A stretch of DNA of 63,087 nt. It comes from an uncultured Candidatus Pelagibacter sp. (GTDB taxonomy: Bacteria > Pseudomonadota > Alphaproteobacteria > Pelagibacterales > Pelagibacteraceae). Positions 25,878 to 45,602 of this stretch are shown here, piece by piece. Location: positions 1-63,087 of the forward strand of contig CAJQTO010000011.1 in NCBI GenBank assembly GCA_905620465.1. The letters are read 5' to 3'. The translations under genes were made by a program, and so were the position numbers. The notes below the pieces were generated by a model. It did not search any database. It was not told the origin of the DNA and saw only the letters and a program-made list of their open reading frames with translations. Positions within the stretch are counted from its first letter, which is position 1, and each line of letters starts with the position of its first letter.

Positions 25878-26288
25878 ATGTCAGAAAATATAGAACAAAA
25901 ATGTTTATCAAAAGGTGTAAAGCTCACTGAGCAAAGAAAAATTATAGCTAAAATTATGTCAGGATCTAGTGATCACCCTGATGTAGATGAACTTTATAAT
26001 AGAGTATCAAAAATTGATTCAAAAATTAGTATTGCAACCGTCTATAGAACAGTAAAGCTGTTTGAGGAGTCTGGAATTTTAGCAAAACATGAATTTAAAG
26101 GGAGCAAGGCTAGATATGAAGAACTTAATGAAGGACATCACGACCATTTAATAGATGTTAAATCTGGAAAAATAATAGAATTTGTAGACGAAGAAATTGA
26201 AAAGTTACAAAAAAAAGTTGCTGAAAAGTATGGTTATAATTTAGTAGATCATAAATTAGAACTGTATGGGGTTAAAAAAAAAACCTAA
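25878..26288 (+). CDS. fur: Fur family transcriptional regulator
   Basis: KLTEQRKIIAKIMSGSSDHPDVDELYNRVSKIDSKISIATVYRTVKLFEESGIL; EGHHDHLIDVKSGKIIEF. Confidence 0.93.
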   Translation: MSENIEQKCLSKGVKLTEQRKIIAKIMSGSSDHPDVDELYNRVSKIDSKISIATVYRTVKLFEESGILAKHEFKGSKARYEELNEGHHDHLIDVKSGKIIEFVDEEIEKLQKKVAEKYGYNLVDHKLELYGVKKKT

Positions 26289-42594: not shown

Positions 42595-42644
42595 AAATTA
42601 AGATCCTTTAATACTTGATTTGTAAGGATTATAATATAGAAATA

Positions 42645-42663
42645 GTTTAGAACTATTATAAAC
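42645..42663. promoter_or_regulatory. Putative Fur-family (Irr) operator at irr
   Basis: GTTTAGAAC-T-ATTATAAAC, an imperfect 9-1-9 palindrome ending 4 nt before the irr ATG. Confidence 0.5.
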
Positions 42664-43096: not shown

Positions 43097-43134
43097 TTTA
43101 ATAATATCAATAGTTTAACATTTACATTAAAATA

Positions 43135-43164
43135 ATTCTAAACTGTTGACTTATAGTTTAGAAT
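43135..43164. promoter_or_regulatory. Inverted repeat over the rubrerythrin promoter (putative Irr operator)
   Basis: ATTCTAAAC-N12-GTTTAGAAT, perfect 9-bp arms; the spacer contains the likely -35 TTGACT (43146-43151). Confidence 0.6.
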
Positions 43165-43175
43165 GATTATATATT
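43146..43175 (+). promoter_or_regulatory. Sigma70-like promoter of rubrerythrin
   Basis: TTGACT (43146-43151), 18-bp spacer, TATATT (43170-43175); AAGGAG Shine-Dalgarno just before the ATG at 43201. Confidence 0.65.
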
Positions 43176-43200
43176 AATCATAATCATTAAGGAGAAAAAT

Positions 43201-43674: not shown

Positions 43675-45006
43675 ATGAGCAAAGAAGGCGGCACAGAAGC
43701 ACCTATAAGACATCCAATAAATTTTGAGCATCCTGATTTTTTAGATACAAAAAAATTAGATGACGAAATGAGAAGAGCATTTGATATCTGTCATGGATGT
43801 AGAAGATGTTTTAATTTATGCGACTCATTTCCAAAATTATTTGATATGATAGACGAGTCAGAAAATGAGGATGTAGAAAGTTTAAAAAGTGAACAATTTG
43901 AACCTGTAGTAGATGCCTGCACATTATGCGATATGTGTTTTATGACTAAGTGTCCTTATGTTCCACCACATGATTTCGATTTAGATTTTCCTCATTTAAT
44001 GTTGAGATATAGAACAGCTCAAAAAAAATTAAATAAATTACCAGCAGTACCAGCGCAATTAGCTCAAATTGATAGAAATGCAAAAATTGGTGTAATGCTA
44101 TCATCACTAATAAATTGGACAACAAATATTAAAAATACATTCTTTAGAAAAATATTAGAATTAGTTGCTGGAATTGATATGAGAGTTAAATTACCAGTTT
44201 ATAATTCAGAAACATTTACAAATTATTTTAAAAAAAATAATGATCCAATAAATACTGAAGCTCCATCCAAAAGTAGAAAAGTTGTAATTTATTCAACGTG
44301 CTTTGTTAATTTTAATAAAAAGGATACAGGAGTTGCTGCTTTAAAAGTTTTAAAGAAAAATGGAGTTGAAGTTCAAGAGGCTTACCCAGGATGTTGTGGA
44401 ATGCCTTACCTCGAACAAGCAGACCTTTTAAAAGTTGTTGAACAAGCCAAAAAAGTATCCAAAGACTTATTGGAATGGGTAGATAAAGGTTATAAAATTA
44501 TTACACTTACAGCTAGTTGTGGTTTAATGTTAAAATTTGAATGGCCATTATTATTGCCCAATAATGAAAATATTAAAAGAATTTCAAAAAATACTAGAGA
44601 TATAGATGAATATATCGTTGATATAGCACAAAACGAAGGCCTAGCAGAAGGTTTACAAGAAATTGATGGTGGGGTGACAGTTCACAATGCTTGTCACGCT
44701 AGAGCACAAAATATGGGCATTAAATCTAGAGATATGCTAAAATTTATTCCCAATATTAAAATGGATGTTGTTGAAAGATGTGCAGGCCATGGTGGAACTT
44801 TCGGGGTTATGAAGAAAACACACGATCTTGCTGTAAAAGTTGGAACACCAACAGCGAGACAGATTAAAAATAAAAATAATAAATACATGTCTTCAGACTG
44901 TCCTTTGGCGGGAAAGCATTTAAAACAATTAGAGACAGACACAAACATAGCCAACGATGAGGCACTACACCCCATCGAATTAATGGCAAAAAGTTATAGA
45001 TTATAA
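43675..45006 (+). CDS. (Fe-S)-binding protein, heterodisulfide reductase/GlpC-like (CCG domains)
   Basis: [15 protein letters not shown] and [17 protein letters not shown] (4Fe-4S); CCG-type motifs [14 protein letters not shown] and [11 protein letters not shown]. Confidence 0.9.
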
Positions 45007-45008
45007 TT

Positions 45009-45602
45009 ATGAGCAAAGAAAAAAGATTAATTGAAAAAAAAGATTTAATGTCAGCAGATATTTATGCTGGAAATAGAAAACAAATTAGAAAAGACCTTGT
45101 CGAATTTAAAAAAAATAGAAGAATAGCACTTGGCCCTTATGCAACTTTTTATTTTGAAAGTTTTGAGACTATGGTGGCGCAAATTCAAGAAATGTTACAT
45201 ATTGAAAAAGGTGGTGACCAACAATTAAAAGATGAGTTAATTGCTTATAATCCTTTAGTCCCAAATGGAAAAGAGCTTACGGCAACCCTAATGTTTGAAA
45301 TTGACAATCCAATTTCTAGAGGAGCATTTTTAGGAAAAGTTGGTGGGATAGAAGAAAAAATATTTATGAAAATTGATAACGAGGAGATTAAAGCAGCACC
45401 CGAAGATGATGTGGATAGAACGTCAGCTGAAGGAAAGGCATCTTCAGTACAATTTATTCATTTTAAATTTAATGATGATCAAATTAATAAAATTAAATCA
45501 GGTAATATAAATATTGAACTTGGGATAGATCATAAAGAATATTCACACACTACAAAATTAACTGAAGATAACGTCAAATCCTTATCAGCTGATTTTATTT
45601 AG
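45009..45602 (+). CDS. DUF3501 family protein
   Basis: ADIYAGNRKQIRKDLVEFKKNRRIALGPYATFYFESFETMVAQIQEMLHIEKGG; conserved partner of rubrerythrin and CCG Fe-S proteins. Confidence 0.85.
   Translation: MSKEKRLIEKKDLMSADIYAGNRKQIRKDLVEFKKNRRIALGPYATFYFESFETMVAQIQEMLHIEKGGDQQLKDELIAYNPLVPNGKELTATLMFEIDNPISRGAFLGKVGGIEEKIFMKIDNEEIKAAPEDDVDRTSAEGKASSVQFIHFKFNDDQINKIKSGNINIELGIDHKEYSHTTKLTEDNVKSLSADFI

Follow-up and report, generated by a model that had tools for sequence, protein, structure and literature searches.

A putative paired Irr operator at the rubrerythrin promoter of SAR11 bacteria

Introduction

The Irr operator, ICE, belongs to a family that is already known. Irr binds ICE without heme, and in other genera it represses or activates depending on the position of the ICE (PMC7762939). 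The rubrerythrin-like gene blr7895/mbfA is among the Rhizobiales Irr targets (as cited in PMC3413700). In R. sphaeroides Irr binds the promoters of mbfA and ccpA, and its deletion raises the resistance to H2O2 (PMC3413700). A trio of genes comprising rbr, DUF3501, and RFO has been described as the aerobic-type rubrerythrin cluster (PMC5114695). The predicted target operon of the SAR11 locus described here is exactly this trio; Irr is not mentioned in the text of that paper.

Here we analyse a stretch of 63,087 nucleotides from an uncultured Candidatus Pelagibacter sp. (the window). SAR11 bacteria are extremely abundant, live with low iron and photochemically formed peroxide, and have few regulators; genetic work on these cells is difficult. 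The key papers on ICE are those of Rodionov et al. 2006 and Rudolph et al. 2006, of which the former may already contain irr/rbr sites of Ca. P. ubique. The SAR11 arrangement, consisting of paired boxes and a seemingly single target that can be either rubrerythrin or KatG, appears to be undescribed in the literature searched, in which no publication joining SAR11, katG, and Irr was found; priority is uncertain.

Results

Gene order and the Irr-type regulator

In the window a dehydratase gene on the minus strand, presumably of the fabA type according to its translation, is followed by irr on the plus strand, rbr, a gene with CCG domain, and a DUF3501 gene (Table 1). The source assembly comprises 679 kb and is about 50% complete. 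A TATAAT sequence at 42630–42635, conserved among relatives, lies before the box upstream of irr. A Fur paralogue is encoded at 25881–26285, about 17 kb upstream of irr.

Table 1. Genes, promoter elements and predicted ICE boxes in window coordinates
Feature	Position	Strand	Remarks
ICE box upstream of irr, TTTAGAACTATTATAA, 0 mismatches	42646..42661	+	between TATAAT and irr ATG
irr, Fur-family regulator, Irr type, 142 aa	42668..43096	+	FUR PF01475, E 4.8e-22
ICE box 1, TTTAGAATTATTTTAA on minus strand, 1 mismatch; holds left arm	43127..43142	-	ends 3 bp before TTGACT
-35 element TTGACT	43146..43151	+	read directly; TTGAC kept in alignment of relatives
ICE box 2, TTTAGAATGATTATAT, 1 mismatch; holds right arm	43157..43172	+	over spacer and first half of -10
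-10 element TATATT, 18-bp spacing from -35	43170..43175	+	read directly and from alignment
rbr, aerobic-type rubrerythrin without rubredoxin domain, 138 aa	43201..43617	+	PF02915, E 2.1e-29
CCG-domain Fe-S oxidoreductase (RFO type)	43675..45006	+	presumed same transcript as rbr
DUF3501 protein	45009..45602	+	PF12007, E 2.3e-59; presumed same transcript as rbr

The best NCBIfam model for the regulator was IrrA (E 7.8e-39, 132.7 bits, cut-off 150), followed by Irr (122.4 bits, cut-off 170) and PerRA (67.7 bits). Because the scores stay below the curated cut-offs of the two Irr models and the SAR11 proteins are divergent, we named the protein Irr-type. Residues 92–94 form an HHH (HXH) motif, and its first and third histidines, H92 and H94, are invariant in all 164 Pelagibacterales sequences and in all 29 other sequences; these positions are a candidate site for the response to heme or oxidation. 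A Cys heme regulatory motif of the Bradyrhizobium type was also searched for, and no CP was found in the N-terminal 40 residues, the N-termini of the distant sequences being partly cut. In Bradyrhizobium this motif is linked to heme-triggered degradation; it is not universal among Irr proteins.

The inverted repeat consists of halves of two ICE boxes

The initial annotation had described a perfect 9-N12-9 inverted repeat around the -35 element of rbr as the operator. The repeat is real, with ATTCTAAAC at 43135–43143 and, after 12 nucleotides, GTTTAGAAT at 43156–43164, and the match even extends to 10-N10-10 (ATTCTAAACT/AGTTTAGAAT). The -35 and -10 elements, 18 bp apart, had been located correctly as well. 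Perfect 9-N12-9 repeats are found twice in the window compared to 1.8 expected from a first-order Markov model of the window, and the half-site GTTTAGAAY three times compared to 2.5 expected. With counts this close to expectation, neither the repeat nor the half-site alone exceeds chance in the AT-rich window. The signal above chance is provided by the longer motif GTTTAGAAYNATT together with phylogenetic conservation: exact copies of GTTTAGAAYNATT occur three times in the 679-kb assembly, and all three are situated at irr/rbr.

We searched for ICE with the consensus TTTAGAAYNRTTMTAA (TTTAGAAynrTTmTAA) and called a box when at most one mismatch was present. Read against this consensus, each arm of the 9-N12-9 repeat is the strong half of a predicted ICE box of its own, so that two inward-facing boxes result, their starts 30 bp apart. 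The repeat as a single operator was rejected, since the arms evolve separately and loci that lost box 2 still retain box 1. The half-site that had been noticed upstream of irr is present (GTTTAGAAC, 42645–42653), but it is actually part of a full ICE box, which suggests an autoregulatory site. Allowing one mismatch, we found a box within the 80 bp preceding irr at 143 of 164 distinct Pelagibacterales loci. Five katG-type loci (L097, L102, L103, L105, and L107) have lost this box and kept the katG box, suggesting that autoregulation was lost there.

A second inverted repeat had been proposed around the -10 element. This repeat, ATGATTA-TATAT-TAATCAT, is indeed present at 43163–43181. It is not conserved in relatives, however, and is probably fortuitous; we rejected it as a functional element. 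Repeats of the 7-N5-7 type occur 27 times in the window, compared to 16 expected from a first-order Markov model.

Conservation and position of the boxes

More than 80 related irr–rbr intergenic regions share the block ATTATAATnATTCTAAACTrTTGACA. It contains an entire ICE box, whose reverse complement is TTTAGAATnATTATAA and which stops 3 bp short of the -35 element. Box 1 is near-universal at irr–rbr loci, and a distance of 19 bp from the start of the ICE to TTGAC occurs 94 times among 104 distinct rbr loci. Box 2 is kept in the near clade of the window, is degenerate in many rbr lineages, and lies downstream of the -10 element in L092–L095; at about half of the rbr-type loci it is weak or lost, leaving box 1 alone. 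The position of box 2 is the commonest box position at katG-type loci. Where both boxes are present, their starts are mostly 30–31 bp apart. In the sister family the palindrome TTTAGAA-N3-TTCTAAA is exact, giving the fully palindromic TTTAGAATAATTCTAA, while the second ICE half is usually TTATAA in the clade of the window.

In the interval from irr to the following gene, all but one of the 164 distinct Pelagibacterales irr loci, a second family included, have a box when one mismatch is allowed (163/164). Shuffling this interval produced a box in 20 of 8,200 cases, and reversing it produced none in the 164 sequences. All 160 irr loci with rbr or katG behind them have the box. The initial annotation had named footprinting across relatives and a genome-wide scan as checks; the sites turned out to be conserved in related irr–rbr regions, and they are concentrated at the irr/rbr locus instead of being spread over the genome. 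Likewise, across the genus (61 genomes) exact copies of the motif are mostly located at the irr locus, and searches outside this locus for ICE with no or one mismatch yielded no excess over reversed-pattern controls. For lack of this excess we claim no wider Irr regulon, although weaker sites may escape a consensus search. From these searches the SAR11 circuit looks like a small dedicated switch composed of irr and one neighbouring peroxidase and not like a global iron regulon.

Far from irr, one genome (G071, contig C1:76167–76312) contains four ICE-like palindromes in a row (TTTAGAATTATTCTAA, TTTAGAAAGATTCTAA), spaced by about 32 or 65 bp. They might form a repeat array that has nothing to do with Irr, or else a cluster of operators.

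Outside the Pelagibacterales, irr is followed by rbr at 24 of 29 other alphaproteobacterial loci (81–89% identical among the loci listed). In twelve of these 24 loci a box, again with one mismatch allowed, lies between the two genes, often directly upstream of TTGAC. The irr–ICE–rbr unit thus looks like an old alphaproteobacterial unit.

Rubrerythrin and KatG exchange behind the box

Many lineages have katG, coding for the catalase-peroxidase HPI, behind the box in place of rbr. Rubrerythrin is a non-heme protein, and KatG is a heme enzyme. Among 247 Pelagibacterales genomes rbr was found in 95 and katG in 133, whereas no genome contains both, compared to 51 genomes expected if the two genes were independent (kinship ignored). 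On the Irr tree, which is weakly resolved, at least six changes of the neighbour are needed. L259–L262, placed inside an rbr-type clade, have a full double-box promoter in front of katG. By gene neighbourhood and tree, rubrerythrin and katG have evidently been swapped repeatedly across SAR11, the switch being retained. The retained box is situated by the -35 element at rbr and over the -10 element at katG.

In three lineages, L169 (G064), L171 (G276), and L168 (G261), Irr and its rbr or katG neighbour are unusually similar to those of another lineage, suggesting that the irr–ICE–peroxidase cassette may have moved by horizontal transfer. Two loci of the sister family, L254 and L255 (genus g8), have a perfect ICE after irr with neither rbr nor katG behind it. 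What follows the ICE in L255 is a promoter with TTGACA and a short ORF that begins with MIKEALIKKLEGQVA. Both have katG elsewhere, near a tRNA gene and with an ICE of its own.

The box follows irr

All 59 tested katG loci of Irr-encoding genomes contain the box in the katG promoter (56/56 irr-linked and 3/3 irr-unlinked loci). In contrast, none of eight katG-bearing Irr-less genomes, in which irr was not detected, has it, the best match showing four mismatches. The difference corresponds to a Fisher p of 1.5e-10 with kinship ignored; since the presence of Irr follows phylogeny, the Irr-less genomes, which belong to four genera, are not fully independent. Three genomes of the sister family, with katG and irr on different contigs, have an exact box at katG. 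A Fur orthologue is retained in six of the eight Irr-less katG genomes. In ten Irr-less genomes only one exact box was found altogether, and nine of them are without any. As the box is absent from Irr-less genomes with Fur and present at unlinked katG genes, it follows Irr and neither fur nor linkage.

One of the eight Irr-less katG genomes, L251 (G148), has lost irr; its katG adjoins the fabA-type gene, at the place usual for irr, and has no ICE. This is an apparent natural joint loss of regulator and operator.

Discussion

Very probably, the site serves as a paired operator for Irr, binding being deduced from motif, position, and co-occurrence. The initial annotation had proposed an Irr operator over the rubrerythrin promoter; this proposal holds, with the operator redrawn and with the presence of the box tracking the irr gene. 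We considered two other explanations for the site. The inverted repeat could be a chance product of the AT-rich intergenic region, as the frequencies of repeat and half-site in the window would allow. Deep conservation at fixed promoter positions, the tracking of irr, and the near-exclusive genomic location make this scarcely credible; for the two ICE boxes we take chance to be refuted, and for the repeat at 43163–43181 it is still the best reading. Alternatively, Fur, which has an orthologue in the window, or a different regulator could read the boxes, given that operators of the Fur family are AT-rich palindromes. However, six Irr-less genomes keep Fur and have no box at katG, the exact box is missing from nine of ten Irr-less genomes, and the motif matches the ICE consensus of Irr, so that we judge a reading by Fur to be very improbable.

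On the Irr reading, one Irr dimer would occupy box 1, against the -35 element, and another box 2, which covers the spacer and the start of the -10 element. With box starts 30 bp apart, that is, about three helical turns, the dimers would be situated on the same face of the DNA and could act together. The third box, upstream of irr, would serve autoregulation. Irr would keep the rbr promoter down at least via box 2 by blocking the -10 element; box 1 may add to the repression or may, where it stands alone, act positively. Upon heme binding or loss under oxidative conditions Irr would release the promoter, and rubrerythrin would be made together with its partners RFO and DUF3501 to scavenge peroxide. 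In other SAR11 lineages the same Irr switch would act on katG.

As to the sign of control, we lean towards Irr being a repressor here, because of the position of box 2 and the near-consensus promoter. Irr could instead be mainly an activator that, at low heme or iron, binds box 1 by the -35 element and recruits RNA polymerase to rbr. The near-universal presence of box 1 at rbr with its fixed spacing to the -35 element is consistent with activation, which is common for Irr and depends on the position of the ICE (PMC7762939). Moreover, in iron-limited Ca. P. ubique the rbr mRNA rose 1.57-fold and the irr mRNA did not follow iron (PMC2864753). The rise is not what a simple repressor at low iron would produce and leaves room for the activator. 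The change is small, however, and may not depend on Irr, the promoter already has near-consensus -35 and -10 elements, and box 2 over the -10 element in the clade of the window, like the box at most katG loci, fits repression. A role mainly as activator is thus rather unlikely in our view, though to be taken seriously. Going beyond repression at rbr, we suggest, tentatively and with some doubt, that Irr may be a dedicated PerR-like heme/peroxide switch for one exchangeable scavenger, with the retained box moving with the enzyme and possibly changing the sign of control.

The locus provides a concrete candidate operator for the main candidate peroxide defence of SAR11. The Pelagibacterales surveyed have rubrerythrin or KatG and never both, and whichever is present is usually located behind the same Irr switch. 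The swap amounts to a natural experiment on how one regulator deals with the same task when it is carried out with or without heme.

Comparison with known systems

The closest similarity is to Irr and ICE of the Rhizobiales (Bradyrhizobium, Rhizobium, Brucella), with which the SAR11 system shares an Irr protein with HXH motif and a TTTAGAA-N3-TTCTAAA operator near the promoter. Rhizobiales Irr, however, acts globally in iron regulation, on several to many targets, whereas in SAR11 no excess of boxes was found beyond the irr locus. Unlike in Rhizobiales, SAR11 Irr would control KatG or a rubrerythrin that is soluble and of the aerobic type, and its boxes commonly form pairs 30–31 bp apart around the -35 element. 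The Cys heme regulatory motif of Bradyrhizobium Irr was not seen in SAR11 Irr. Irr of R. sphaeroides resembles the SAR11 regulator in having few predicted direct targets, which are linked to peroxide or iron stress, and in an ICE at the promoter (PMC3413700); its targets differ, being a membrane-bound ferritin (mbfA) and a cytochrome c peroxidase (ccpA). In outline the system is also similar to PerR, a Fur-family protein adjoining and controlling peroxide-scavenging genes, the control being deduced in the case of SAR11. In contrast to PerR, the SAR11 sequence groups with Irr, and its operator is the ICE.
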